From positions 1 through 64,000 of the forward strand of contig JAGBAX010000028.1 of the NCBI GenBank assembly GCA_017938765.1: a stretch of 64,000 nt of DNA, given 5' to 3'. Shown piece after piece: positions 20,082-37,557 of the stretch (position 1 is its first letter; each line of letters begins with the position of its first letter). The translations under genes and the position numbers were made by a program. Below the pieces are notes generated by a model, which saw only the letters and a program-made list of their open reading frames with translations, made no database searches and was not told the DNA's origin. This stretch comes from Alistipes sp. GTDB taxonomy: Bacteria > Bacteroidota > Bacteroidia > Bacteroidales > Rikenellaceae.

Positions 20082-23000
20082 TTACTCCTCAAGCCAAGCA
20101 CCAAGGTCGTCGTAAATCTTATTCGCCATAAATACCATAGCCTTTGCAGATGGGTGACAACCCTTGCCAGTCTCTGGGTTATAGTCGTGCTTTGGCATAT
20201 AGGTCTGGTCGTTGAAGCCATTTACAGCGAGCAGGTCAACAACCTTTGCATTGTCGCCATAGTGAGCTGCAATCTTATGAATTGACTGCTGAACACCTAC
20301 GCCAGTATAGTCGCCCACGATGCAGACAATCTTTGTATCTGCTCTACGCTCTAAAATAAGCTCAATGAGCTTAATGTATGCCTCGCAGAATGTAGTATCA
20401 TTCAGAGCCTCAACCTCAGCACGAGTTATAGCTGCATCAGCTGCATCAAAATATGGCTTCAGGTCGGCATCACTTGGACCTGCGGTTGCCTTGAGCTCTA
20501 CAGAGCCATAGAGTGGTGCGTGGTTCTTACTCCAGTCGTTTGTTCCGCCGTGGATAATAACGATATCTGCCTCACCAACACCCTGATTATCTATAAATCG
20601 CTTTGCATAGTATGTATCTACTGTAGCAGAAGAGTTAGCCACGCAAGTACCTGAATATGAGATATTACGCTCAATTTTTGCATCAAGCATCAGCTCGTTA
20701 GCCAAAATCCACCAATAGGTCTGAGACATAGAGGTCAAATCGCCATCTGCAGTTGGATAGTGACATCCATAACCGTTAGGCACAATACCTCTAAAGGTAG
20801 AGATGCTATCTCCAATAACGCTAATACGCTTCTGGGTAGATGGCGTTGCCAGATTTGTCGCCATACCCTCAATTACAGGATAACCATCAGCATCCTTAAC
20901 CCAACTCTTGAGCGGATAGCTACAGCTACCGTTATATGCTGCAACAGCGGCATTCATATTTGTCAGCAGCTCGTCTGTTGTAGTGATAGCTGCGATATGC
21001 TCGCCCTGTACAGGCTTATTATTTGCCGCATTTGGATTAAAGCTACGCGCCGACTCATCATAGTAAGCGTAGTCTACACTTGCGTGATAGATTCTAGAGC
21101 CGATACCAGCTGCCAGAGTAGATGGATTTGAGTATGTATCGTAGCTAATGCCGTCAGTATGGAAGCCATCCCACTTAATAGTAGAGTATACGCCGTGGAT
21201 TGTAGCGCCCTTTATCGAAGCTGTAGTACCATTCTGGAAACCGATAATACCCGCCATAACGTTATTCTTAGAGGCATAGCCATCAGTAGCTACGCTAACT
21301 GTATGAATCTCCTCTACGCGTGATGCACAGTTTAGGATATTGAGAGTACCTGCGGCTATCTGTGCCCAACCTGCAATACCTGCTGCAAGGGTGTAACCAT
21401 TGTTTCCATTATTACCGCGAGCCTCAATACGACGACCTGCGTATACAGAGTTGATAATGTTAAACTTACAAGCTGCATCGTTTACCTTTAGATAACCCGC
21501 AATACCTCCAACAGAGTACTGGCCTACCAGATTTCCGTATGCAATACAGTTGTCAATAGTAGTCTCAACCTTTACAGTTGCAGAGCCGACAATACCGCCT
21601 ACATTATACTGCGAGCAGGTAACATTTCCGTAAGACTTACAATCAATAATATTAGCAGTACCATAGCTTGAGATTATACCGACGATACCACCAGCACAAG
21701 TTACATAGCTATGAACATCGCCATAAGATACACAATTGATTATATTACAAGCACGGTCAGCAGTACTATTACCCTGATAGCCGACAATACCGCCGACATT
21801 ATCCTCACCAGGGATAAATGCGTAGTTGATACAGTCAATAACGTGTGCAGTACCGTTTGTACCCTCTGCATTAAGAGTCTCAAATGGCTGCAGAGCACCC
21901 ACAATACCACCTGTATGGTCTCCACGAGATGAGATACAAGCCAACTGTGAAATAAGACAGTTCTTTGCATATCCAGATGTCAAGTGAGCTGTAATACCAC
22001 CCGTATAGTTATCTGTATAGTTAGAGACACAACCATCCACAACGCAGTTGTCAAATGTCGTAACAAATCTTGCTCGTGCAGCGATACCACCGCAGAAGTG
22101 GCTACCAGCATCAACAGTAGCACCCTTTGCAAGGGTACACTTATTAAACTTTGTACCAGCTGCATACGCCACAATACCACCGCAAAGCTGAGAAGTTGAT
22201 TTCGCAGCACCGCTAAATGTTACGCCATCCATTGTACAGCCGTTCACATAACCTGCAACACCGCCGACATAACTACCTACATAGTCCTTACTATCTGCAG
22301 GCTCAATGAACTTCACGGCTGCAGTACCATTTACAGTAGCATCTACATTGATATTCTCAAATGTTGTGTTAAATGCCACACCCACAAGCGCACCAACGTT
22401 AATATATGAAGAGGTAATATTACTATCCTTAATATTGATATTCTTCAGCGTTGCACCCTCTGTATAGCCAAATAGACCACACGCCACAGGGGATGTATTG
22501 TTAATAGTAAGACCCGAAATAGTGTAGTTGCCACCATCATAAACACCCTTAAATGGCAGCGATGAGCTATTAATTCCAGTTGATTCATCATACATATAGA
22601 CACCGATAGGACCGACTTCCACGCCAGTCACATCAATATTTGCCACCTGACGGTAGTGCTTATCAGCATATGGTGCAGATGCATCACCAACTTGTATAGT
22701 GAGCAACTGCAAGTCAGCCGCTGTGCTAATCAGATATGGATTTGCAACCGAGCCATCACCGCCACCCCACTGGCCAGCAATCGCACGGCGAGATGCAGCT
22801 TTGTTGAGGTCAATATAGAGGTCGTAATAGGTGTTACGAGCAACCTGCTTATTATAAGTATAGGTATAGATAGCCCTATCGGTTGTAACCTCAACTGTTC
22901 CCTGATAGTTGCCTGGAGCAAGCACCATATAGATAGCCTTTGCATCAGCCTTAACTGAGCCAACAGCATACGGAGTACCCAGAGTAGTAGTTACGCTACC

Positions 23001-23654
23001 ACAGTCGCCACCAGTAAGTGTCAGACCTGCGTCAGCACCGCCATTTGCAAGGTCAGCAGCAAACTCACCGGCAACAGTTCCTGTGGTATTATAGCTTACA
23101 GAGAGCACCTTCTCACCTGCATAAGCACCCGTAGCATATACCTTTGCCTGCAGCAAAGATGCCATAGGGCGCATAGTTACAGTCGCGGTAAGCTCTGTAG
23201 CTAAAGCCACTGGATAGCCAATCATAGGCATATTAGTCACATTGAAGAGTGCCGCCTCTGTTTGGCTCTGTGCCTGAGGAATGGTCAGCACAACATCCTT
23301 TATGCTCTTAGCATCATTTGCGCCACTATGTGGGAAGTAGACAAACATCTTGTCGCCCGCAACAAAGTCTTTTGTCGTTGTTGAGCAAAAACCGCGACCA
23401 TCCTGCAAGGCTACAACAGCCTCGGCATTTACAGTCGGCAGTGTAGAGTCAATATAAACACCCAGCAGCTCCTCGCCATTGCCCTGCCAAGAGTACAGAC
23501 CATCCTTAAAGAGAATACGAGTATCCTCGTCCAAATCTACATAGAAGTTCAACTGCTTAGAGACAAGATTACTCTCCTCAATAACATCCTTATTACAAGA
23601 ATTTAGTCCCAAAACTGCAGCAATAGCCACAATAATAATGTATAACCTTTTCAT
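20082..23654 (-). CDS. Large GLUG-repeat lipoprotein with C-terminal SGNH/GDSL hydrolase domain
   Basis: The 1190-residue lipoprotein has lipobox 'LNSC' (Cys near 20). The N-terminal region (about 35-290) resembles fimbrillin-like domains ('EDTRILF...YSWQGNGEELLGVY'). A long middle (about 300-930) contains many GLUG-type repeats of the form 'VGGIVGY.....I.NC..YG', which form a beta-helix. The C-terminal 245 residues are an SGNH hydrolase with 'GDSIS' (948-952), 'GGTND' and 'CHPSAKAM', so Ser, Asn and His of the active site are present. The domain order suggests a surface adhesin-like shaft carrying an esterase that might deacylate glycans. A tiny gene (23667-23798) precedes it and a terminator follows. 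Confidence 0.85.
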   Translation of the reverse strand: MKRLYIIIVAIAAVLGLNSCNKDVIEESNLVSKQLNFYVDLDEDTRILFKDGLYSWQGNGEELLGVYIDSTLPTVNAEAVVALQDGRGFCSTTTKDFVAGDKMFVYFPHSGANDAKSIKDVVLTIPQAQSQTEAALFNVTNMPMIGYPVALATELTATVTMRPMASLLQAKVYATGAYAGEKVLSVSYNTTGTVAGEFAADLANGGADAGLTLTGGDCGSVTTTLGTPYAVGSVKADAKAIYMVLAPGNYQGTVEVTTDRAIYTYTYNKQVARNTYYDLYIDLNKAASRRAIAGQWGGGDGSVANPYLISTAADLQLLTIQVGDASAPYADKHYRQVANIDVTGVEVGPIGVYMYDESTGINSSSLPFKGVYDGGNYTISGLTINNTSPVACGLFGYTEGATLKNINIKDSNITSSYINVGALVGVAFNTTFENINVDATVNGTAAVKFIEPADSKDYVGSYVGGVAGYVNGCTMDGVTFSGAAKSTSQLCGGIVAYAAGTKFNKCTLAKGATVDAGSHFCGGIAARARFVTTFDNCVVDGCVSNYTDNYTGGITAHLTSGYAKNCLISQLACISSRGDHTGGIVGALQPFETLNAEGTNGTAHVIDCINYAFIPGEDNVGGIVGYQGNSTADRACNIINCVSYGDVHSYVTCAGGIVGIISSYGTANIIDCKSYGNVTCSQYNVGGIVGSATVKVETTIDNCIAYGNLVGQYSVGGIAGYLKVNDAACKFNIINSVYAGRRIEARGNNGNNGYTLAAGIAGWAQIAAGTLNILNCASRVEEIHTVSVATDGYASKNNVMAGIIGFQNGTTASIKGATIHGVYSTIKWDGFHTDGISYDTYSNPSTLAAGIGSRIYHASVDYAYYDESARSFNPNAANNKPVQGEHIAAITTTDELLTNMNAAVAAYNGSCSYPLKSWVKDADGYPVIEGMATNLATPSTQKRISVIGDSISTFRGIVPNGYGCHYPTADGDLTSMSQTYWWILANELMLDAKIERNISYSGTCVANSSATVDTYYAKRFIDNQGVGEADIVIIHGGTNDWSKNHAPLYGSVELKATAGPSDADLKPYFDAADAAITRAEVEALNDTTFCEAYIKLIELILERRADTKIVCIVGDYTGVGVQQSIHKIAAHYGDNAKVVDLLAVNGFNDQTYMPKHDYNPETGKGCHPSAKAMVFMANKIYDDLGAWLEE

Positions 23655-27028: not shown

Positions 27029-27751
27029 CTATCTTCCAAGGATATAAGCTATAGAGAGCACTACGACAATCACCACTGCGGCCATTATAGCAAATCGCTC
27101 CCAGTAACTTGTCTCCTCCTCGGTCGTTACTATCGGTTTACCATTTGCATCTTTCGGCCTCTTAAACCTATCATAAGGAGTGCAGAGGTTAAAAAATACG
27201 TTTCTCAAATAGAGAATCTGCCAACGCTCAAGGTAGCCCAATCTATGCACAACAACATGTTCAACACCATTGATATACTGCCTTGATGTTCTTTCGGCTG
27301 CCTCTTGCAGAAAATCTCCAAAACCAGCATAGACAGCACAGGCATCTGTCATATACTCAATCTTACGCGAGGTATCCTTAAAGCCGTGTACCCACAAAAA
27401 CTTATGTGACATCTCATGAGCGATAACGGCGACAAGCTCTACTGGGGCATAATCTCGGCACTCAAAGCGGCGCTTATCCAACTTAATGTAGACATAGCGA
27501 GAGTCGTTGAGGTTTATCTGTCCAGCCACATTGTGAGGCAGGTTATCCAGCTGAATTACTGGCGCATAGCCCACAAGTACCATATGCACTGCAATCTTCT
27601 CTGCAAGTGTCTGAATGTCATACATTGAGTATGTAGGCGGAACAGAGAAATAGTTATGCGACACCTCTTCGGTAAAAGAGATACCCTTTATTCGGTTTTG
27701 CAGGTGGCCAATGATAAGTTCCAGGCCGCGCTCAGTGATATTATTATCCAT
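27029..27751 (-). CDS. Tail-anchored HExxH metallopeptidase-like protein, unknown
   Basis: The 240-residue protein has a zinc-peptidase motif HEMSH (112-116) and, 15 residues on, 'EYMTDACAVYAGFG' with Glu132 and Asp136, a spacing like the third ligand and following Asp of gluzincins such as M48. There is no signal peptide. A single hydrophobic helix (219-237) ends three residues before the C-terminus, so it should be tail-anchored with the catalytic part in the cytoplasm. I do not recognise a named family. It begins 53 bases after the P-type ATPase stop and may be cotranscribed with it. Confidence 0.75.
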   Translation of the reverse strand: MDNNITERGLELIIGHLQNRIKGISFTEEVSHNYFSVPPTYSMYDIQTLAEKIAVHMVLVGYAPVIQLDNLPHNVAGQINLNDSRYVYIKLDKRRFECRDYAPVELVAVIAHEMSHKFLWVHGFKDTSRKIEYMTDACAVYAGFGDFLQEAAERTSRQYINGVEHVVVHRLGYLERWQILYLRNVFFNLCTPYDRFKRPKDANGKPIVTTEEETSYWERFAIMAAVVIVVVLSIAYILGR

Positions 27752-27804: not shown

Positions 27805-30800
27805 TTACCTCTTAATTGTTCTAACAACATCTGGAATAATCAGCACTGGTGATGTAAAGAGCAGCAGCAACAACCAATCCTGCAGGCTCAGAGCCGTAAC
27901 ATTAAAGAAGCTACCTGCAAAGTTTACAATCAGCACCTGACCGACCAAAATAACCGCTGCAATAATCCAGAAGCCTGCACTATTTGACTCTACTACAGCC
28001 TTACGATTGCGGAAAAGGTCAATAAAGTCACCCATCAAACTACGATTTGTATTGTAGTACTTAGCATTGAAGATGTTCCAGAACTGAAGCAGTACAAACA
28101 TTGTAAAGAAGACTCCCTTATCGTGGCCGGACATATGAGACTTTGTAGGCTGCAGAACATCCATAAAGAAGCTCCTCAGAGATTCTGGCTTAAACAACTC
28201 TGCAACCGTATCTACATCAATATGTCCAAGCAGTTGCCAAAATGCAGCAAGGAAAACGAAGAAGAACAGACCCGCACCGCAGATACGCTTGAGCATAGAC
28301 TTATTGATAATGTGACTCTTAGGGTCACGAGGGCGCTCATTAAGCACGCTCTTATCAGGTGGCAGTGAAGAGAGTGCCATAGCTGCAAAAGTATCCATAA
28401 TAAGGTTTACCCAGAGCATCTGCGTAACAGTCAGTGGCGACTCAAGACCCAAAAATGCACCTAAAAGCACGATAAGGCACGCGCAGAGGTTGATTGTCAT
28501 CTGGAAGATGATAAATCGGCGGATATTGAGATATAGCGAGCGACCCCACATTATCGCCTTGTTGATGCTTGAGAATGAGTTGTCAATAATTGTGATATCA
28601 CTCGCCTCCTTAGCTCGTGCAGTGCCGTCACCCATACTCAGACCCACCTGCGCCTTGCTCAGCGCTGGAGCATCGTTTGTTCCATCGCCCGTAACAGCCA
28701 CAACGTGATTAAGTTGCTGAAGCAGAGTAACAAGGCGAGCCTTATCATCTGGTCGCGCACGAGAGATAATCTTGAAGCTATCTTTCTCAATAAGCTCAAG
28801 TGCCTGCTCATCAGACATTGCCGCAAACTCTGGGCCTGTAACCGTCTGTGGAGGCTCATTTGGTGCGAGCAGACCAATCTGACGACCAATCTCGTTTGCC
28901 GTTCCTGGGGTATCTCCCGTAACGATAATCACGCGCACACCTGCATGATTGCGGCAGGTATCTATAGCCTCAATAACATCCTCTCGCACTGGGTCTGCAA
29001 TGCCCACAACGCCAACAAAGACGAGCGAAGTTTGTCTATCCTTCAGCACCTCTTGATATGCAAATCCCAAGGTACGCATAGCCTTATTCTGGTACTGAGC
29101 AAGGGTTTTATGTATATGTTTCTCACTTTTTGAGCCAGCGATAGAGTTACACATTGACAGCACAATCTCTGGCGCACCCTTGACAAGGCGGAACTCTCGC
29201 CCATCAGCCATCTGGACAGTGGTCTCCATATACTTTTTCTCCGTTGAGAATGGTTGCTGGCTTACTATTGTTACATTGCGGCGATAGTTCTCATAATCCT
29301 TACCCGACTCCCTGAGCCACTTGAGCAGCGCACCCTCTGTAGGGTTACCAATTACACGCACCTCATCGTCAGCCTCAACAGCAAGCTCTGCTGTAGAATT
29401 CACTGCAATGTTAAGCTCTATAATTTTCTCATTATTAACGCCATAAAAGTCTGTCGCCATAACGACCATCTGATTCTTTGTCAGCGTACCAGTCTTGTCT
29501 GTACAGATTACTGTTGTCGCGCCCATAGTCTCGCAGGCGTGGAGCTTACGCACCAAGTTATTGGCCTTAAGCATCTTACGCATACTGAGCGCAAGGCTCA
29601 CTGTCACACTCATAGGCAATCCCTCTGGCACAGCCACAACAATCAGCGTCACAGCAATCATTATAGACGAGAGCATAAACTCAGCAAAATGAAGCCAGTC
29701 AAAACTGCCATCTACAGTGGTATTCTCCGAGAGGAAGAATAGCATTGTTCGGCCTATAACTATCAGAGCTGCAATAATAAAGCTGGCCTTTGATATCCAG
29801 CCACCGAGTTGGTCAAGCTGCATATTGAGCGGGGTCTGAACATCGCTACCCTCGCGAGTCAGAGCCACACCCTTACCCTCCTCAGTATCATCGCCTACGG
29901 CGGTAACCTTATAGTAACAGTTACCCTCAATAATCATCGCACCGCGAAGCAAAAAGTCGGTCGGATATGTAGCATTCGGATTGTTATACTCCTCGCCCAC
30001 GCCCTTATTGGCATATAGCTCTCCAGTAAACTTTGACTCGTCAACCTTGAGCGAGTTTGACAGGATAAGATATCCATCGGCAGGCACCTCATCGCCACTC
30101 TCAAGGTAGACCACATCGCCCACAACAACATCCTGCTTCTTAATTCTGTATGGACGGGCAATAAGCACTACAGCACTCTTATGCTCCTCTACCTGAGACT
30201 CCTGCTCTGGCTCTGGGTTCTCTACGGACTTAACCTCTACAGCGACCTGCTGATTCTCATCAGACTTCTTATCCACCACATCTGCCTCAACACTCTTCTC
30301 ACAGAAGACATTATCCCCCTCAAGAGAGTCACGCTGATAATCAAAGTCCACCTTATCGGCAATAGCATCGCTCACTGGTGCAGGGTTTGGCTCCACATCG
30401 GCGACATCAAGTCCCTCATTGAGAATATCCCGCTCCTTGTCTGGTATTACATCAACCTTCACGCTCTCTGTAGGCAGGTCGTCAAGTGGGACAGCCTGCT
30501 CATCCTCCTTGCTCAGCTGCACCGAGCGGTAGACAACTATCGGGCGATCATCCTTTACCTTATTAAGAATCTCAAACTCCTTATTTGCCTTTACCTCAAA
30601 AACAAAGGCGATACCCGTAGCAAGCAGTAACGCTACAAGCACGCCCACAGGCTCTAACAACATAGATGCCCCTTTGCCCATCCAGATAATCTCGTAGAGG
30701 GAGATTCCGACAGATAGCGCAAAGACTACAAGCAGTACGATGATAATCGGGTCCTTGAACTTCTCAAAATATTGACGCCACAGCGACTCCTTCTCTGGCG

Positions 30801-30888
30801 GTGTGATAATATTGCGCCCCAAGCCCTCTTGAACCTCATCAGAGCCTTGTGCCAAGCAATTTGAGAGTATAGATTGTTTACGTTTCAT
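27805..30888 (-). CDS. Calcium-type (P2) P-type ATPase with acidic insertion
   Basis: The 1027-residue cation pump has 'PEGLP' (421-425) in helix 4, the phosphorylated Asp464 in 'ICTDKTGTLT', the 'TGE' phosphatase loop (288-290) and 'TGDGTNDAPAL'. The layout is that of calcium-translocating ATPases (PMCA/SERCA-like), with extra C-terminal helices. Residues 122-240, between the start of the actuator domain and 'RPYRIKKQDVVVGD', form an extra segment rich in Asp, Glu and Val that related Bacteroidales pumps do not normally have. The substrate is probably Ca2+ by family. A terminator lies upstream, so it has its own promoter (TATTTTTG at 30912-30919). Confidence 0.88.
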   Translation of the reverse strand: MKRKQSILSNCLAQGSDEVQEGLGRNIITPPEKESLWRQYFEKFKDPIIIVLLVVFALSVGISLYEIIWMGKGASMLLEPVGVLVALLLATGIAFVFEVKANKEFEILNKVKDDRPIVVYRSVQLSKEDEQAVPLDDLPTESVKVDVIPDKERDILNEGLDVADVEPNPAPVSDAIADKVDFDYQRDSLEGDNVFCEKSVEADVVDKKSDENQQVAVEVKSVENPEPEQESQVEEHKSAVVLIARPYRIKKQDVVVGDVVYLESGDEVPADGYLILSNSLKVDESKFTGELYANKGVGEEYNNPNATYPTDFLLRGAMIIEGNCYYKVTAVGDDTEEGKGVALTREGSDVQTPLNMQLDQLGGWISKASFIIAALIVIGRTMLFFLSENTTVDGSFDWLHFAEFMLSSIMIAVTLIVVAVPEGLPMSVTVSLALSMRKMLKANNLVRKLHACETMGATTVICTDKTGTLTKNQMVVMATDFYGVNNEKIIELNIAVNSTAELAVEADDEVRVIGNPTEGALLKWLRESGKDYENYRRNVTIVSQQPFSTEKKYMETTVQMADGREFRLVKGAPEIVLSMCNSIAGSKSEKHIHKTLAQYQNKAMRTLGFAYQEVLKDRQTSLVFVGVVGIADPVREDVIEAIDTCRNHAGVRVIIVTGDTPGTANEIGRQIGLLAPNEPPQTVTGPEFAAMSDEQALELIEKDSFKIISRARPDDKARLVTLLQQLNHVVAVTGDGTNDAPALSKAQVGLSMGDGTARAKEASDITIIDNSFSSINKAIMWGRSLYLNIRRFIIFQMTINLCACLIVLLGAFLGLESPLTVTQMLWVNLIMDTFAAMALSSLPPDKSVLNERPRDPKSHIINKSMLKRICGAGLFFFVFLAAFWQLLGHIDVDTVAELFKPESLRSFFMDVLQPTKSHMSGHDKGVFFTMFVLLQFWNIFNAKYYNTNRSLMGDFIDLFRNRKAVVESNSAGFWIIAAVILVGQVLIVNFAGSFFNVTALSLQDWLLLLLFTSPVLIIPDVVRTIKR

Positions 30889-30932: not shown

Positions 30933-30970
30933 AGAAAAAAGCCCAAAATCCAAACGTTTGGATTTTGGGT
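30933..30970 (-). terminator. Terminator of the kinase-AAA/TerB unit
   Basis: On the minus strand the perfect palindrome from CCCAAAATCC to GGATTTTGGG (centre AAACGTTT) is followed by CTTTTTTC. It separates the TerB-like gene from the ATPase. Confidence 0.85.
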
Positions 30971-31033: not shown

Positions 31034-32545
31034 CTACACAATAAGTCTATTCCACTGGTCGTGCTTTGTGATAGGAGTTATCACGCCGTCGGCATTCTGG
31101 ATAAAGACAAGGGCTGGAGATAGGTCTACATAGTAGGTTTTAAGGGTCTTATCAAACTTTATGTGGTACTGCTCTGCATTTGCAAGGTGGTGTACCTCTG
31201 CAAAGCCAGTATTAACATAGTTTTTCAGCGCGCTACGGTGCTGGATAATCTTGGATATATAGCTTAGGAATGAGCCCTTGCCACTATCCTTCGTAGAGAG
31301 CTGTTCGTAGATTGCAATAAGGTTATAGATGAGCTTTGACCAGTCACTATTAAGTTCAACAAGTCGCTGCTTAAACTGTTCAACGCTAAACTGCTCGGAG
31401 TGCATAACACTGACCACCTCAACATTATTCAGATAGCCCAGAGCCTTCTCAAAACACTCTTGGCTAACACCTGTACGGCCATAACGGAGCAGAAGCAAAT
31501 AGAGACTCTTTGCCTGCGGTGCCGACTCAAAGCGCAGCAGTTCATTATCAAGGTCCACAAGGCGGAAGTCGCCTCGGTGGTCAATAGCTACAGAGCTGAG
31601 AATCTTCGCCTCCGAGCTTAAGTAGTCATACAGCAGGCGGTAGTAACCCTGATAGCTGATAAGGTTTACCGCGCGCTCCAGCAGAGCCACAAAATGAAGT
31701 ATACGCTGCTTGACAGAGTGTGAAATATCAATACAGAGGAAGTCCACACTCTTTACTAATCGTCCATCATCCTCAAGCAGGTAGTTATCCTCAACTTTAA
31801 CCATCAAAAATCCACTATAAGGGATGCGGTCAATCTCTATGTTATACCTTGAGCAGATAACCTTATAGAAGGTCTTAACATCCATACGCTCAAGGGTATT
31901 GCTCAAGTCAGAGAGTCGCTCACGGTCACCAACTGGCACAATAAATTCCATAGAGCGTCTAAGAAGGTCAAAGCCCTCACCCTGCACATCCAATCCGCTC
32001 CATTGGTCTTTGAGTTCACTGATAACATTAGGCAGGTAGAATAGCTGCAAGCCAACATCCTCCAGAGCCTTTGAGAGCAACAGGTAGTCGTACTTATCAT
32101 TAAGCACAGCTGCCACCTCACTCTGCTCACTCTGCTCAAGGTAGACAATCTGCTCAGAGAGGCACTCTGCCTCAATATCAGACGTTGAGACAATAGTACA
32201 CCACCCGCATGACGAATTTTCAAGGCACATGCGGATAGCTGCCAGGAGCAGATTCTCTCTGCTATCAATATCGTTATCAATGCCTACGATAGACTCAAGC
32301 ACATCAAGCACAGCCCTCTTGCACTGCTCAGAGGCCATCTTAAAAGTTGAGACAGCCTGCTGAAGAGAGATGTAGTGTATAAACTCAAGATCGCCCACAC
32401 TCATACCACAAGTGCGTTGCAGACGGTCAAGCAGCGCCACCTCATCGCGGTGTATCTGCTTATCCGCCTTAACCAAATCCACCGCAATCTTAAAGAGTGC
32501 TTGCTTCTGGATATCGGTTAGCTCTCTGCTCAAGTCGCACATCAT
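31034..32545 (-). CDS. TerB-like domain protein with Bacteroidales-type C-terminal module
   Basis: The 503-residue soluble protein has an all-helical N-terminal domain (about 10-125) that fits the TerB family: 'IAVDLVKADKQIHRDEVALLDRL' and 'VGIDNDIDSRENLLL' are the two halves of the acidic, putatively metal-binding bundle. The centre (about 130-350) is unassigned. The C-terminus ('AKSLYLLLLRYGRTGVSQECFEKAL' and on to the end) resembles a module I associate with other uncharacterised Bacteroidales proteins, a resemblance from memory only. The gene begins three bases after the kinase-AAA+ stop, so both should be made together. Function unknown; a sensor or adaptor for the kinase-ATPase is an inference. 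Confidence 0.7.
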   Translation of the reverse strand: MMCDLSRELTDIQKQALFKIAVDLVKADKQIHRDEVALLDRLQRTCGMSVGDLEFIHYISLQQAVSTFKMASEQCKRAVLDVLESIVGIDNDIDSRENLLLAAIRMCLENSSCGWCTIVSTSDIEAECLSEQIVYLEQSEQSEVAAVLNDKYDYLLLSKALEDVGLQLFYLPNVISELKDQWSGLDVQGEGFDLLRRSMEFIVPVGDRERLSDLSNTLERMDVKTFYKVICSRYNIEIDRIPYSGFLMVKVEDNYLLEDDGRLVKSVDFLCIDISHSVKQRILHFVALLERAVNLISYQGYYRLLYDYLSSEAKILSSVAIDHRGDFRLVDLDNELLRFESAPQAKSLYLLLLRYGRTGVSQECFEKALGYLNNVEVVSVMHSEQFSVEQFKQRLVELNSDWSKLIYNLIAIYEQLSTKDSGKGSFLSYISKIIQHRSALKNYVNTGFAEVHHLANAEQYHIKFDKTLKTYYVDLSPALVFIQNADGVITPITKHDQWNRLIV

Positions 32546-32548
32546 AGA

Positions 32549-34393
32549 CTATACGTTATATCCGATTTTGCGTACAATATTTTCGCGCTCAATACCCTCC
32601 ATCTTACGGCGAATCTCTTCAAATACCTTCAGCGTATCTGGCCTTAGCGATGGGTGGGTATTACCCACAGTGGTCTCAAGAATCTGCTGAGAAATAAGCG
32701 TGTCGGTATATGCCGAAATCATCGCCGCATCGTTTACAACATAGGCAATATCGCTGGCGATAAAGCCCTCAGTAAGCTCTGCAAGGCGCTGGGTATCAAT
32801 ATCCTCAGCACAAGGGCGGTCCTTAAGGTGGATAGCAAACATCTCTCGGCGAGCCTCGCTATCTGGCAGTGGCACATATACCTGCTTATCCATACGACCC
32901 GTGCGCAGAACGGCAGGGTCAATCTTATCTGGACGGTTTGTCGTTCCAATGACAAAAATACCGCGCTTAGAGCAGTTATTGAGCTGCGTGAGGAACTCAT
33001 TAACCTCGCCCGAAGAGTACTCTGCCGCGCGAGAAGAGCGGTCTGGCACTAAAGCGTCAAACTCGTCAAAGCAGATAACTATAGGCGCATGGCGCTCGGC
33101 CATCTTAAAGAGTTTGCCTATCTTCTCCTGACCACCATGCACAAAAGAACTGGCAAGGTCTGAGGACTTTACAAGAACAAAGTTGAACTTTGACTCCTCG
33201 GCAAACTTCTCCGAGATAAATGTCTTTCCACATCCTGGAGGGCCATAGAGCAGCATTCCATTTGGGATAGTCACACGATACTGCGCCGCCTTCTCCTTAT
33301 TACGAAGCACAAAGAGTACGCGCTGCTCAAGGTAGCTCTTCAGCTCTGCCATACCCGCAATATCGGCAAAACCATTTCCGCCACCGCTCTTAATATCAAA
33401 GTTGACACGATTTGGGTCCTGCGGGTTGTAGTCATCATCCTTACAAGGGCGACGAGAGTCGCTATCTTCGTGCTTTGATGGCTTATTATCCTTTGGCTCA
33501 GATTTTGGCTTCTGCTCCTCTGTACTTTGAGCGGCCATAAAGCTCTGCGCATCAAGGTCAGCAAGCAACTGGTCTACAGAGTGATATCGCTCCGTAAACG
33601 ACAGTGCAAGACCCTTTGAAAGCACCACTTTCAGCCTATCGTCAATATTTAGCGCGCTGTAGTCTAATTTTCGCTCCTTGCGCACAGCCTTCACAAGCAT
33701 AGCTCGGCGGAAGTAGCTGGCATCCTTCTCAAAATCTACACCCCAAGGCACTCGTCCCGTAAGCATCGTATAGAAGACTGCCGTTGCAGCAAAGATATCA
33801 CTACGCTCGTCGTAGATACCCGCAAAGGTCTCATTTGCCGAGTATATCACCTCAATATCCGAAGTATCAAATGGCACATCTCCACTACAACGCTGCGAGG
33901 TGTGTCCCAAGTCAATAATCTCTGGCGTTCCTGCCGTAGTTGCACTCAGCATAACATTGCGCGGAGTGATATCGTTGTGATAGATGCCCTGACTGTGCAT
34001 ATGCTTAAGACCCTCAAGCATACCTGCAAAGATGCGCACAGCCTCCTGCTCCGAGAGTTTATGCTCACGATATAGTTTTTCAGCAAGCAGCTCGCCACTG
34101 AAGTAGTTTGTTGTGTAGTACTGGCAGTCGCTCTGCGCTGCTGAGAGTCTTCCCGAACTGATAAAGCTCACCACATTGCGGCTCTGAATCTTCTGGCAAT
34201 ACTCAATCTCCAGAATAACCCCCGTCTGCGGATTTATGAGCTTGCTTGGCACCAACTTCATAATATAGACCTTCATAAAGAAGGGCTGGTGCGACTCATC
34301 CTCAACGCGGTAGGTCTCTGTATAAACATTTGCTTTTATAAGACTTTGGACCAAGTATCCATCTACTCTCTGTCCACTCTCAAGTACTGCCAT
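32549..34393 (-). CDS. Fusion of a serine/threonine protein kinase-like domain and an AAA+ ATPase
   Basis: The 614-residue protein joins two domains rarely found in one chain. The kinase-like domain (about 5-285) has the ATP-contacting Lys41 in 'FFMKVY', the catalytic loop 'HNDITPRN' (Asp141, Asn146) and 'DLG' (Asp161) in place of DFG. Its glycine-rich loop is poor in glycine. A charged linker (about 290-330) leads to an AAA+ domain (about 340-590) of the p97/FtsH type with Walker A 'GPPGCGKT' (384-391), Walker B 'CFDEFDAL' (Asp443, Glu444) and arginine finger region 'RTGRMDK'. The ATG at 34391-34393 is preferred to a TTG at 34441, because that reading crosses the -7 element. The TerB-like partner follows after three bases. 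Substrate unknown. Confidence 0.85.
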   Translation of the reverse strand: MAVLESGQRVDGYLVQSLIKANVYTETYRVEDESHQPFFMKVYIMKLVPSKLINPQTGVILEIEYCQKIQSRNVVSFISSGRLSAAQSDCQYYTTNYFSGELLAEKLYREHKLSEQEAVRIFAGMLEGLKHMHSQGIYHNDITPRNVMLSATTAGTPEIIDLGHTSQRCSGDVPFDTSDIEVIYSANETFAGIYDERSDIFAATAVFYTMLTGRVPWGVDFEKDASYFRRAMLVKAVRKERKLDYSALNIDDRLKVVLSKGLALSFTERYHSVDQLLADLDAQSFMAAQSTEEQKPKSEPKDNKPSKHEDSDSRRPCKDDDYNPQDPNRVNFDIKSGGGNGFADIAGMAELKSYLEQRVLFVLRNKEKAAQYRVTIPNGMLLYGPPGCGKTFISEKFAEESKFNFVLVKSSDLASSFVHGGQEKIGKLFKMAERHAPIVICFDEFDALVPDRSSRAAEYSSGEVNEFLTQLNNCSKRGIFVIGTTNRPDKIDPAVLRTGRMDKQVYVPLPDSEARREMFAIHLKDRPCAEDIDTQRLAELTEGFIASDIAYVVNDAAMISAYTDTLISQQILETTVGNTHPSLRPDTLKVFEEIRRKMEGIERENIVRKIGYNV

Positions 34394-34429: not shown

Positions 34430-34471
34430 CAAAAGTAACAAAGATTTGCAGAAATTGCAAATCTTTGTTAC
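34430..34471 (-). promoter_or_regulatory. Terminator hairpin merged with the promoter of the kinase-AAA+ unit
   Basis: A perfect 16-bp inverted repeat, GTAACAAAGATTTGCA (34435-34450) and its complement (34456-34471), follows the stop of the GLUG lipoprotein. On the minus strand its last bases run into TACTTTTG (34430-34437), a -7 element for the kinase-AAA+ gene 36 bases downstream. The T-run of the terminator and the promoter box thus share bases. Confidence 0.7.
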
Positions 34472-34491
34472 TGAAAGGTATGTTATATAGA

Positions 34492-37400
34492 TTACTCTAC
34501 ATCAATAAATGACATTCCAGAGTACTTTGGAATTACATTATAACCGTGCAACCAACGATAGTAGTAGTATGTATCGCCCTCGGTATTATTGAGCTTATGC
34601 AGCACTGATGCCTCGTACTTATTCTCGCCGTCGCCACCAGTTACAACGCCCACATAACCGCCAATCTTACAATCCTTAACAACCAGACTCTTATTACAGT
34701 TACCTGCGATAGTTGCACGATACTCTACAGTTGCATTCTGGTCAATAACCCAGTTCTTATTTGTATCATCATACTGAAGTGTTGTGTCGTGGGCAGCCAG
34801 AAGCTTACCGCGACTCTCGCAGTTAGAGATAACGCACTTTGCGCCACCACCGTTACCGATAATACCGCCAAGAAGAACATAGATATTGCTTGTTGTATCG
34901 CCAACCTCACGAGCTGTCTTAAAGAGTGTACATACAGTACCAGAGTTTACACAGCCGTCAATAATAGAGTACTGATTCTCCATCTGACCTGCAATAGCAC
35001 CAAGATACTCAGCCGCAACGCACTTACGCTCCATAGCAACAATGCCAGAGTGAGTACAGTTGTAGAACGCAGAGCAATTATTAAGACCTGCAACACCACC
35101 TGCACGGAACTTTGCACCGCCAAGAACAGATACAGTACCCTTATTCTCGCAATTTGTCAAGTGAACACCATAAACGCCGTCTGCAGTGATATCTGTTCCG
35201 CCATAGCAAGCACCAGCGATTCCACCGCCATATGACCAGCCAGTGCTTGTAGTTGAGCCATAGAGCTTAATATTACCATGATTTACGCAACCGTCTAACC
35301 AAACGCCCTTGTCGTAACCATAGCCAGAGACACCCAACTTACCAGCAAATGCACCTGCAAATGTCTGGGTATTAGAGTCACCAGCATTAGTACTTACCTC
35401 TCCGTAGTTCTGGCAATCTGTAAACTTCGCGCGGTAACGAGCAAAACCTACAAAACCACCTGCACAAAGACCACTTGCAAGAGTATTTGCACCCTTAACA
35501 GTCACAGGAGCCTTGTTTACGCACTTCTCTGCATATGCAACATTGTTCGCACCACCATAAGCAAGACCGATAACACCACCAACATTGCAAGTAAGTGGAG
35601 ATGTTGTATTCTCTGACAAACATACTGCGCCCTCATTAACACAGTTATACAGAGTGTGGCAGTTCATACGACCAACAATACCACCGACATGAATTGCAGT
35701 ACAGCTTGCAGCTGTTGAGCCTCCGCAAATAGCACCAGTGTTAGTACAGTTGCTCATAGTGCTCACCTCCTCACTGCCGCGTGTGATATAACCAAATACA
35801 CCACCTACATAGCTATCCTTACCACCATTGAAGTTGGTAATAGCTCCACTATTAGAACAATCTGAAACCACTGGAGTGCAACCCTCAGAGCCATCAGAGA
35901 GAATAGCAATAACGCCACCTACAACGCTCTGTCCATCAAGACCTGTAGCGTAAGAGATGTTTATATCGCCCTCGTTCTTACAATTCTTAACCAAAATATC
36001 ATCTGTAGCGGCATATACGCGACCAACAACACCACCAAGGCGTACCTTACCAGATGTGTTCGGACCAGCAGTGAAACTAACCTTACTTGTACAGTTCTCA
36101 ACCGTTCCACCGCTAATCTGTGCTACTACACCGCCGACATATGACCAGTTGTCATCTGGGTCTGCCATATCTGCAACAATAGTACCCTCAACAGTAAGAT
36201 TCTTCACAACGCCACCATTAGCAACTACGCCAAACAGACCTGCGCTATTGTTGTAGCTCTCTACTGTCTTACCATCCTCGTCAATGAAGCTAACCTTGTA
36301 AGCGTCATAGTTGTGGTTGATTGTAAGGCCAGAGATTGTATTGCCATTACCGTCAAAAACACCAACAAACTGAGGCTTAATAACCTGTGCAGCATCGTTA
36401 TTACAACCGATAGCCATCCAGTTTGTGTATGCAGAGAGGTTGATATTGCTCTTCAGCACAACAACGCCATCCTCATTTGAGAACTCAGCACCTGCAGGGT
36501 AACGCTCAGTTGTACCATTTACTGCATCAGCAAAGGCCTTAAACTGCTCTGCGCTTGAGATACCGTCAGCAACCTTATCCTTCAATACATCCTTAACAGC
36601 CTGATAGATATGCTTATGCTCATCTACTGCACTCTCTGCAGGATTATACGCACCCCAAATTACGCGACGAGCATTCTCTGCTCCATTCTTGTAGAGCTTC
36701 AAAACCGCCTTTGCGTGGTAAAGTGGAGCGTAGAGAGTTGTATTTGTAACCTCTGATGTAACGCCATTCTCATCTGTTACTGCCTCTGTAGTAGTTACAG
36801 TGCGTGTAAGACCCATAACTACAGCCTGCACCTTGCGAGCAGTTGCAAGATTTGTAAGTCCTGCAAGCTTTACCTTAACGCTCTGGCCAATCTCTGCATT
36901 GTCAAGGCTAATAGCGCCAGTAGCAGCATCAATAGTAACGCCTGAAGCTACGGCATATGTATCAGCAAGCACAGAGTTTGTAAGAGAGAGTGCATCTACA
37001 TTCCAATCCTTTGAAGCTGTCAGCTCAAGCTCTACAACAGATGCAAGTGGGTTCATAGTTGCCACGAGCTTACCATCTTCAACCACCACATTTGCAGAGT
37101 AGTGGTAGAGAGGCATCTTGTTTGTCAGCTCGCCCTCGCTCTGCTCTGCAGCAATGTCATACACTGCACTCATCGTAGCAGCATCTACACTCTTTACATT
37201 GTAGAACACAGCCACTGGCTTGCTAAGGTCTGTTGGATAGAATACATTAGCCTCATCCTTTGGAGTAAAGTCAGATATACGACCCGCCTTTGTAGTTACA
37301 TACTGATAGCTCTTACCGTCGTATACAACAGTAAGCTCATCGCCTACCTCCCAGTTCAGTTCACTGGTCTTTGCTACATTATCACCCTCAATACTTACGC

Positions 37401-37557
37401 GGGTCAAATCGCCAACTGAAGCCACAAGGGTAATTCCACCCTCAATACCCTCAACATTCTGGTCGCCATTAACTCCGATGTTCACATCAGAAGTCAAATC
37501 CTTTGAGCAGCTTGCCAACATAGCAACAACTGCTACAAGCATAAAAATCTTTCTCAT
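34492..37557 (-). CDS. Large GLUG-repeat lipoprotein with fimbrillin-like N-terminus
   Basis: The 1021-residue lipoprotein has lipobox 'LASC' (Cys near 17). Residues about 40-300 resemble a fimbrillin-like domain ('LTRVSIEGDN...LNWEVGDELTVVYDG'). From about 340 on there are many GLUG-type units such as 'YVGGVVAQISGGTVENCTSKV' and 'VGGVIG.....NVAYAEKCVNKAPV', expected to build a beta-helix. Unlike the lipoprotein at 20082-23654 it has no SGNH domain and ends with a short non-repeat tail. Probably a surface adhesin or glycan-binding shaft. A tiny gene (37581-37715) precedes it. Confidence 0.83.
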   Translation of the reverse strand: MRKIFMLVAVVAMLASCSKDLTSDVNIGVNGDQNVEGIEGGITLVASVGDLTRVSIEGDNVAKTSELNWEVGDELTVVYDGKSYQYVTTKAGRISDFTPKDEANVFYPTDLSKPVAVFYNVKSVDAATMSAVYDIAAEQSEGELTNKMPLYHYSANVVVEDGKLVATMNPLASVVELELTASKDWNVDALSLTNSVLADTYAVASGVTIDAATGAISLDNAEIGQSVKVKLAGLTNLATARKVQAVVMGLTRTVTTTEAVTDENGVTSEVTNTTLYAPLYHAKAVLKLYKNGAENARRVIWGAYNPAESAVDEHKHIYQAVKDVLKDKVADGISSAEQFKAFADAVNGTTERYPAGAEFSNEDGVVVLKSNINLSAYTNWMAIGCNNDAAQVIKPQFVGVFDGNGNTISGLTINHNYDAYKVSFIDEDGKTVESYNNSAGLFGVVANGGVVKNLTVEGTIVADMADPDDNWSYVGGVVAQISGGTVENCTSKVSFTAGPNTSGKVRLGGVVGRVYAATDDILVKNCKNEGDINISYATGLDGQSVVGGVIAILSDGSEGCTPVVSDCSNSGAITNFNGGKDSYVGGVFGYITRGSEEVSTMSNCTNTGAICGGSTAASCTAIHVGGIVGRMNCHTLYNCVNEGAVCLSENTTSPLTCNVGGVIGLAYGGANNVAYAEKCVNKAPVTVKGANTLASGLCAGGFVGFARYRAKFTDCQNYGEVSTNAGDSNTQTFAGAFAGKLGVSGYGYDKGVWLDGCVNHGNIKLYGSTTSTGWSYGGGIAGACYGGTDITADGVYGVHLTNCENKGTVSVLGGAKFRAGGVAGLNNCSAFYNCTHSGIVAMERKCVAAEYLGAIAGQMENQYSIIDGCVNSGTVCTLFKTAREVGDTTSNIYVLLGGIIGNGGGAKCVISNCESRGKLLAAHDTTLQYDDTNKNWVIDQNATVEYRATIAGNCNKSLVVKDCKIGGYVGVVTGGDGENKYEASVLHKLNNTEGDTYYYYRWLHGYNVIPKYSGMSFIDVE

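Follow-up and report, generated by a model that had tools for sequence, protein, structure and literature searches.

Organization of the Locus

This analysis concerns a window of 64,000 nucleotides from Alistipes sp. (assembly GCA_017938765.1, contig JAGBAX010000028.1, positions 1 to 64,000), and in particular two neighboring genes that encode a fusion of a protein kinase domain with an AAA+ ATPase domain (kinase-AAA+) and a long TerB-like protein (TerB503), together with the calcium pump gene that lies beyond them. The following features were assigned:

32549..34393, minus strand: kinase-AAA+ fusion, 614 amino acids, ATG at 34393; Pfam Pkinase and AAA
33539..34393, minus strand: kinase part, residues 1–285; K41, E62, D141, N146, and D161 present
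32552..33382, minus strand: AAA+ part, residues 338–614; GPPGCGKT, CFDEFD, TTNRPD, and RTGR
31034..32545, minus strand: TerB503, 503 amino acids, ATG at 32545
32216..32545, minus strand: putative TerB domain, residues 1–110 of TerB503; six sequences all share D28/E35 and D90/E97
31037..32215, minus strand: C-terminal region of TerB503, residues 111–503 (~390 residues); no known family
34434..34472, minus strand: terminator-like hairpin, 17 pairs, −22.5 kcal/mol, z −7.3
30941..30970, no single strand: two-way terminator-like hairpin, 12–13 pairs, z −3.8
27805..30888, minus strand: PMCA-type Ca2+ P-type ATPase, 1027 amino acids; TIGR01517 584.9 bits (cut-off 507)
30142..30525, minus strand: insertion in the pump, residues 122–249, acidic, in the cytosolic A-domain region after transmembrane segment 2

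A preliminary description of this DNA had given the coordinates, strand, and lengths of both genes correctly, as well as the three bases between the kinase-AAA+ stop and the TerB503 ATG. It had also called the pair a two-gene unit with its own promoter. The unit holds, with the two hairpins bounding it on either side: the one at 34434–34472 divides it from an upstream GLUG-repeat gene, and the one at 30941–30970 lies between the TerB503 and Ca2+ ATPase genes. The promoter found no such backing, as eight sigma-70-like sites against 6.4 ± 2.6 expected correspond to chance level in a scan covering the sigma-70-like type alone. The two genes are probably co-transcribed. Both are under purifying selection, with a ratio of nonsynonymous to synonymous substitution rates (dN/dS) of about 0.10–0.15 against four relatives (about 0.11–0.15 for the kinase-AAA+ gene), dS being near or above 1 in most of these comparisons.

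Domain Composition of the Two Proteins

The fusion comprises a protein kinase domain, a charged linker, and a complete p97/FtsH-type AAA+ domain, in this order. Both domains had been proposed earlier and were recovered by Pfam, with Pkinase matching residues 41–271 (9e-26; 91 bits, cut-off 31.7) and AAA matching residues 380–509 over the whole profile (7.1e-35). The lysine, catalytic aspartate, asparagine, and metal-binding aspartate of the active protein kinase superfamily are all in place (K41, D141, N146, and D161), and so is the catalytic motif H139-N140-D141. With its catalytic residues intact, the kinase head is active-looking. The AAA+ part carries the Walker A, Walker B, sensor 1, and arginine finger elements of the p97/FtsH type, its best PDB sequence matches are p97/VCP-like ATPases, and the motor is presumably hexameric. 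An AlphaFold model of the fusion, calculated from five closely related rows, had a mean predicted local distance difference test score (pLDDT) of 35.6 and was not used. Among the matches listed (25 of 43), PADLOC matches of the fusion span either the kinase alone or the AAA alone.

For TerB503, the Pfam TerB profile matched residues ~1–110 with 22.9 bits, under the cut-off of 24.4. A profile built from six TerB503 sequences reached the structure 2h5n (PG_1108) at 5.4e-5, and 2h5n, which we take to be TerB-like, also came first when a weak model predicted without templates was compared by Foldseek (E 0.014, probability 1.00, TMt 0.59; mean pLDDT of the model 45.4, with only the N-terminal helices used). 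A further profile, built from the small TerB proteins described below, reached 2h5n (0.005), the ‘Tellurite resistance protein’ 2ou3 (0.042), and three TerB503 relatives (2e-5 to 3e-4). The profile–profile alignment of TerB503 with the small TerBs was weak, over 40 columns, which counts against TerB membership. Profile and fold matches coincide with D-x2-I-x3-E motifs in residues ~1–110, and by sequence and model these first ~110 residues are TerB-like. TerB domains may bind metal. The TerB-like partner of the preliminary description is thus upheld for this part of the protein but not for the remaining ~390 residues, where Pfam matched no family and model confidence was too low to name a fold. 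A plasmid collection searched with TerB503 gave no match, and PADLOC assigned it to none of its families.

Distribution of the Pair

Of 180 genomes from the genus, 5 contain TerB503 homologs. By contig position, the four besides the window genome were identified as the loci L014–L017 from Rikenellaceae and Alistipes metagenome assemblies; together with the window, they form a clade in which the kinase-AAA+ and TerB503 genes are adjacent in all five genomes, with a spacing of 2–12 bases and a TerB503 protein identity of 69–83%. K41, D141, and D161 are retained in all five kinase-AAA+ copies. The idea that the two genes stay together applies to this clade only: both are present but on different contigs in G092, G234, G446, G300, and G454 (the last without the kinase half), which rules out strict conservation of the pair beyond the clade. 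In G092, which belongs to another genus, one contig has kinase-AAA+ with a YbjN-like neighbor and a different contig has TerB503.

At the level of the order, the kinase-AAA+ profile matched at 1e-90 in 18 of 393 genomes, including three with AAA-only forms, and TerB503 matched at 1e-8 in 8 of 388 Bacteroidales genomes, one of them the window genome. Across the phylum (395 genomes), two profiles detected kinase-AAA+ at 1e-90 in 6 and 7 genomes, respectively, the window genome again included. Leaving aside kinase-AAA+ genes of the Hsp70 type (see below), the genera with kinase-AAA+ or its AAA-only form are the very ones with TerB503: g1, g43, g123, and g133, out of 207 in Bacteroidales. Fisher's test gave 1.3e-8 when counted by genera and 1.6e-8 when counted by genomes (5/7 vs. 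3/381), uncorrected for kinship, from samples of 393 and 388 genomes that are not quite identical sets, and with AAA-only rows with YbjN-like partners classed by partner rather than by tree. Co-occurrence at the genome level is loose. Such AAA-only relatives without an intact kinase part are found at L051, L052, and L053, with one or two YbjN-like genes behind them; there, the kinase part can have been lost or never joined.

A PMCA-Type Calcium Pump Adjoins TerB503

The window pump begins 145 bases past the TerB503 stop, beyond the hairpin. PEGLP and the M6 N/D pair (WVNLIMD), which we take to be Ca2+ site residues, are both conserved in it. The preliminary description had correctly noted a calcium-type P-ATPase downstream, but as a side remark, whereas it is the most conserved neighbor of TerB503: a PMCA-type ATPase adjoins TerB503 in seven of the eight genomes outside the clade in which TerB503 was seen, from three genera, as it does in the window. 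The arrangement is tandem in G092, G234, G121, G407, and G330, and divergent in G446 and G300. The surroundings of TerB503 and pump are unlike, with histidyl-tRNA synthetase-like and transketolase-like genes (named by their first residues) in one genus; another has a CotH gene. A tree of 18 pumps contains a branch (support 93/99) that divides the ten pumps of TerB503 loci, those of L016 and L017 among them, from the eight free pumps, of which L048 is on a very long branch. In G092, the second reading frame past the pump encodes a Na+/Ca2+ exchanger (NCX_Mj, 4.7e-41).

The window pump differs from other PMCA (type IIB) Ca2+ ATPases, with which it shares the TIGR01517 match and the PEGLP and M6 N/D residues, in its TerB neighbor and its large A-domain insertion. 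This insertion comprises 128 residues in the window, 122 in L016, and 123 in L017, as compared to 13 residues in G092 and 7 in 14 other pumps; it was thus found in all three clade pumps available and in none of the 15 others. In the window, it contains 34 acidic and 11 Ser/Thr residues. Its carriers are the clade members whose kinase-AAA+ adjoins the TerB503 gene, a correlation within one clade that falls short of proof of a substrate.

Regarding other genes at the locus, window 27029–27751 encodes a protein of 240 residues that bears a metallopeptidase-like motif (AHEMSH) and has a hydrophobic C-terminal end; it adjoins the pump in the window and in L016, and its Pfam matches were all under cut-off. 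Upstream of the pair, a large lipoprotein-like protein with GLUG repeats (Pfam) is encoded at 34492–37557; the gene is kept at this place in L014, L016, and L017, doubled in L017, and absent from L015. A second large lipoprotein-like protein (window 20082–23654) resembles it by eye. A lipoprotein-like gene with weak TPR matches follows the pair after 2–3 bases in L014 (11509–13143) and L016 (11513–13165); the same gene starts at that place in L015 and is missing in the window and L017.

Kinase-AAA+ Relatives in an Hsp70-Type Module

A tree of 29 kinase-AAA+ rows was drawn with a midpoint root, which serves for drawing only. It leaves out L012 (frame broken in two), L051–L053 (no intact kinase part), and L090–L092 from viral contigs; L018–L036, L054–L071, and L083–L089 mostly duplicate places covered by larger loci. 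The five clade copies (100/99) nest in a branch of YbjN-partnered rows (100/98) with G092 as sister, and a YbjN-like gene follows kinase-AAA+ in G092 and four other loci. In Pfam, these YbjN/TY-Chap proteins scored over the cut-offs for L011, below for L039, and gave no match for L009. The other branch contains 17 Hsp70-type rows and one other row.

The Hsp70-type module consists of a protein with a J-like start (387–690 residues), a coiled-coil protein of ~290–345 residues with a signal-like start, an Hsp70 (826–857 residues; PF00012 5.5e-69), kinase-AAA+, and a small TerB of about 154–191 residues. All five parts are present in 12 of the 17 loci, and the small TerB lies ≤1.2 kb downstream of kinase-AAA+ in 14. 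Of the other three, L050 and L074 run out of contig after 170 and 530 bases, respectively, and L044 lacks TerB. Eight of the 14 loci trained the small-TerB profile and six were outside training; like the YbjN and long-TerB profiles, it was built from the loci that it then scored, and separate matches outside the training rows exist. Five small TerBs were compared to Pfam, where L045 scored over the cut-off, three below, and one gave no match; a sixth is named ‘TerB family’ by NCBI. For the first protein of the module, three of four PDB matches were J-domain proteins (E 0.19–0.77) and no HPD motif was found, giving a hint of a possible J domain. The five-gene module occurs across Bacteroidota, e.g., at L072 (3787–11312), L043 (3313–10889), L077 (2414–9734), L075, and L076. 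Two viral-contig records, L092 (2436–8792) and L091 (2062–8789), carry the same core and gave no small-TerB match; the core lies near a baseplate wedge gene in L092 and near an integrase in L091, and could belong to a prophage or contractile injection locus.

The branches differ in their kinase sites. Only L074 among the 17 Hsp70-type copies keeps the lysine, the catalytic aspartate, and the DFG aspartate, at least one of which is lost in the other 16; the catalytic aspartate itself is kept in 2 of 17 and replaced by glutamate in 10. All three residues are kept in 5/5 clade copies and 4/5 YbjN-type copies (L039 lacks the DFG aspartate), and the catalytic aspartate is lost in the two tree rows with neither partner. 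Walker A is kept in 29/29 rows and Walker B DE in 28/29. By these counts, the AAA+ motor is the constant part of the family, and it is the branch of the window that is characterized by an intact kinase site. The kinases with damaged sites are probably inactive. TerB proteins of two builds adjoin the family in two branches, since TerB503 does so in the clade and the small TerB in the Hsp70-type loci, which supports the earlier proposal that kinase-AAA+ works with a TerB protein. The link to TerB may have arisen twice, or once early on with later losses.

The module has no PADLOC model and was not met in the literature searches made. PADLOC assigned the TerB and J-like proteins of L072 and L043 to no family and gave weak matches (1e-5 to 1e-2) for their Hsp70 and coiled-coil proteins. 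The module lies between BrxC and PglX in L043, with ZorA2 beyond, beside BrxL and PglZ on a Haliscomenobacter plasmid (L072), and beside HsdM, HsdS, and ThsB in L077, while L045 and L074 have candidate-defence neighbors only; all of these neighbors were selected by eye. When a single nearby gene was taken from each of ten further module loci, 0/10 matched PADLOC at 1e-10, which weakens a defence-island reading. For ten genes close to loci lacking the module, PADLOC returned two matches, one for a RecQ-like helicase, so named by eye, and the other to a CARF fusion model over 76 residues. Three near neighbors of the window pair gave no PADLOC match beyond one weak candidate match. Some module copies sit in defence islands, an observation short of a demonstrated enrichment. 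Within 7 kb of the window pair, neither a J-like nor a coiled-coil gene of the module is present, and the Hsp70 located 4.9 kb upstream is an ordinary-looking DnaK.

Comparison with Known Systems

The preliminary description had tied the TerB-like protein to Ter stress systems, which comprise TerB, TerC, and TerD. A TerB-type domain is common to these and to the pair, but the partners here are kinase-AAA+ and a Ca2+ pump, and TerD (PF02342) was found in 0 of 20 genomes including G000, with a control that matched in 2 of 14 genomes. The tie is thereby lost, and a Ter stress cassette is ruled out. PMC11090510 describes the TerY-P triad as vWA, PP2C, and a Ser/Thr kinase with a zinc ribbon, and also extended type III-A CoCoNuT operons that include a p97-like AAA+ according to its text and Hsp70-like components according to a figure legend. 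TerY-P and the pair both bring Ter-type genes together with a kinase, which is fused to a zinc ribbon in TerY-P and to AAA+ in the pair; a Pfam scan of four neighboring genes in the window detected neither vWA nor PP2C. Nearer to TerY-P is G040 (L012, 3069–10044), a TerY-P-like set in which a second kinase, a vWA-like protein below the Pfam cut-off, PP2C, and Hsp70 lie by a kinase-AAA+ whose frame is broken in two. Similar parts occur unfused in an archaeon: on a Thermococcus peptonophilus plasmid (L073, 5155–11625), kinase, AAA ATPase, and PP2C are separate genes, with a heavy-metal P-type ATPase gene after them at a distance of one hypothetical gene.

Shango (PMC10250203) is an anti-phage system of a TerB-like protein, an ATPase, and a DEAD/DEAH helicase. 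It shares with the pair a TerB-type protein with an ATPase, but the AAA+ of the pair bears a kinase and has a pump as neighbor; no helicase was found among the neighbors scanned, the direct ones being the GLUG-repeat protein and the Ca2+ ATPase. DjlA combines TerB with a J domain and is a DnaK co-chaperone tied to the Rcs phosphorelay (PMC11709261). TerB is linked to a chaperone and to phospho-signaling in both cases, on another scaffold without a recognized J domain in the pair. By analogy, the pair would work most like TerY-P and DjlA, in which Ter-type proteins are joined to phospho-signaling or chaperones. PMC7159879, PMC7824862, and PMC4012209 served as further sources for comparison.

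A Possible Role in Calcium Handling

We consider it quite possible, though somewhat short of an even chance, that TerB503 serves as a reporter of calcium or of the state of the pump and brings in kinase-AAA+, which then acts on the pump. TerB503 would be an old partner of the PMCA-type Ca2+ ATPase, and its TerB domain, with acidic pairs that do not vary among six sequences (D28/E35 and D90/E97), would probably bind a divalent ion or report pump or membrane state. The clade would have gained a second, co-directed partner in the form of an AAA+ motor with an active-looking kinase head, which TerB503 would recruit or gate. Kinase-AAA+ would phosphorylate and/or pull on a client, most simply the pump via its acidic, Ser/Thr-containing insertion. 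Several observations weigh against this reading. Three genomes (G121, G330, and G407) hold TerB503 and the pump without kinase-AAA+, their sole 1e-50 matches being AAA domains in frames of 668–713 residues that are FtsH-like by length. Conversely, TerB503 was not found in G099, G310, and G391, which hold kinase-AAA+ or the AAA form, in a search without its own positive control whose profile matched in other searches. The seven pump-linked genomes outside the clade represent just three genera, with four from one of them; G454 has no pump on the 6.5-kb contig of TerB503, the contigs of L014 and L015 stop before any pump, and six genes in L016 and one in L017 lie between TerB503 and the pump. In the window, a hairpin separates the two genes, so that they need not be co-transcribed. 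Finally, the insertion sequence differs among its three carriers, and the support of 93 in the pump tree falls just under the tool's star.

Alternatively, the pair could be a domesticated offshoot of the Hsp70/kinase-AAA+/TerB module, mobile in some genomes and directed against phages, with TerB as sensor or adaptor and the AAA+ motor dismantling complexes of the invader. The sister branch in the five-gene module, with its recurrent downstream TerB, points in this direction, as do the 3 of 17 loci beside BREX, Zorya, Thoeris, or type I restriction genes, the positions of L013 (near a MobA relaxase and an integrase), L076 (near an integrase), and L072 (on a plasmid), and the likeness to Shango. 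We nevertheless regard a defence function as rather unlikely for the pair: the positive neighbors were picked by eye and have no background rate, the ten other module loci and the direct surroundings of the window pair gave the PADLOC results described above, the window lacks the accompanying module genes beside an ordinary-looking DnaK, and its kinase is intact, as opposed to 16 of 17 module copies with damaged sites. Unlikely, too, is a general role in protein quality control, in which an AAA+ unfoldase with the kinase fold as regulator would use TerB, YbjN-like, or Hsp70 proteins as adaptors or co-chaperones, calcium being incidental. Chaperone-like partners (Hsp70 and YbjN/TY-Chap) do recur, and DjlA offers a precedent for TerB in this setting, but the pump linkage and the integrity of the kinase in the window branch would be left unexplained. 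TerB503 could also serve the calcium pump only, kinase-AAA+ having been put upstream by rearrangement and acting alone. The five genomes that hold both genes apart and the YbjN-like gene that takes the place after kinase-AAA+ elsewhere agree with such loose neighbors; the spacing of 2–12 bases kept in 5/5 clade genomes despite the divergence of TerB503, the occurrence in the same genera elsewhere, and the TerB proteins adjoining the enzyme family in two branches make this distinctly improbable.

Returning to the pump-directed role of the pair, its furthest extension would be a bacterial calcium-signaling machine, in which a Ca2+-sensing TerB beside a PMCA-type pump delivers a kinase-bearing AAA+ unfoldase to the insertion, while a dead-kinase core serves the Hsp70 module in some defence islands; as a whole, we rate this as a long shot. 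To our knowledge, bacterial cytosolic calcium control and the TerB ligand are both open questions. We know of no bacterial pump with such a regulator and of no described link between TerB and a pump, the literature searches not having been aimed at TerB with calcium ATPases. TerB503 with its conserved Ca2+-pump neighbor provides concrete candidates for ligand and client. Kinase-AAA+ would be an unusual signaling enzyme on an unfoldase-type motor, in which a branch with kept and a branch with mostly lost kinase sites can be compared, and the Hsp70/kinase-fold-AAA+/TerB module, for which PADLOC holds no model, lies in defence islands of some genomes. Taken with the pump, the pair suggests an undescribed control of calcium handling or envelope stress.

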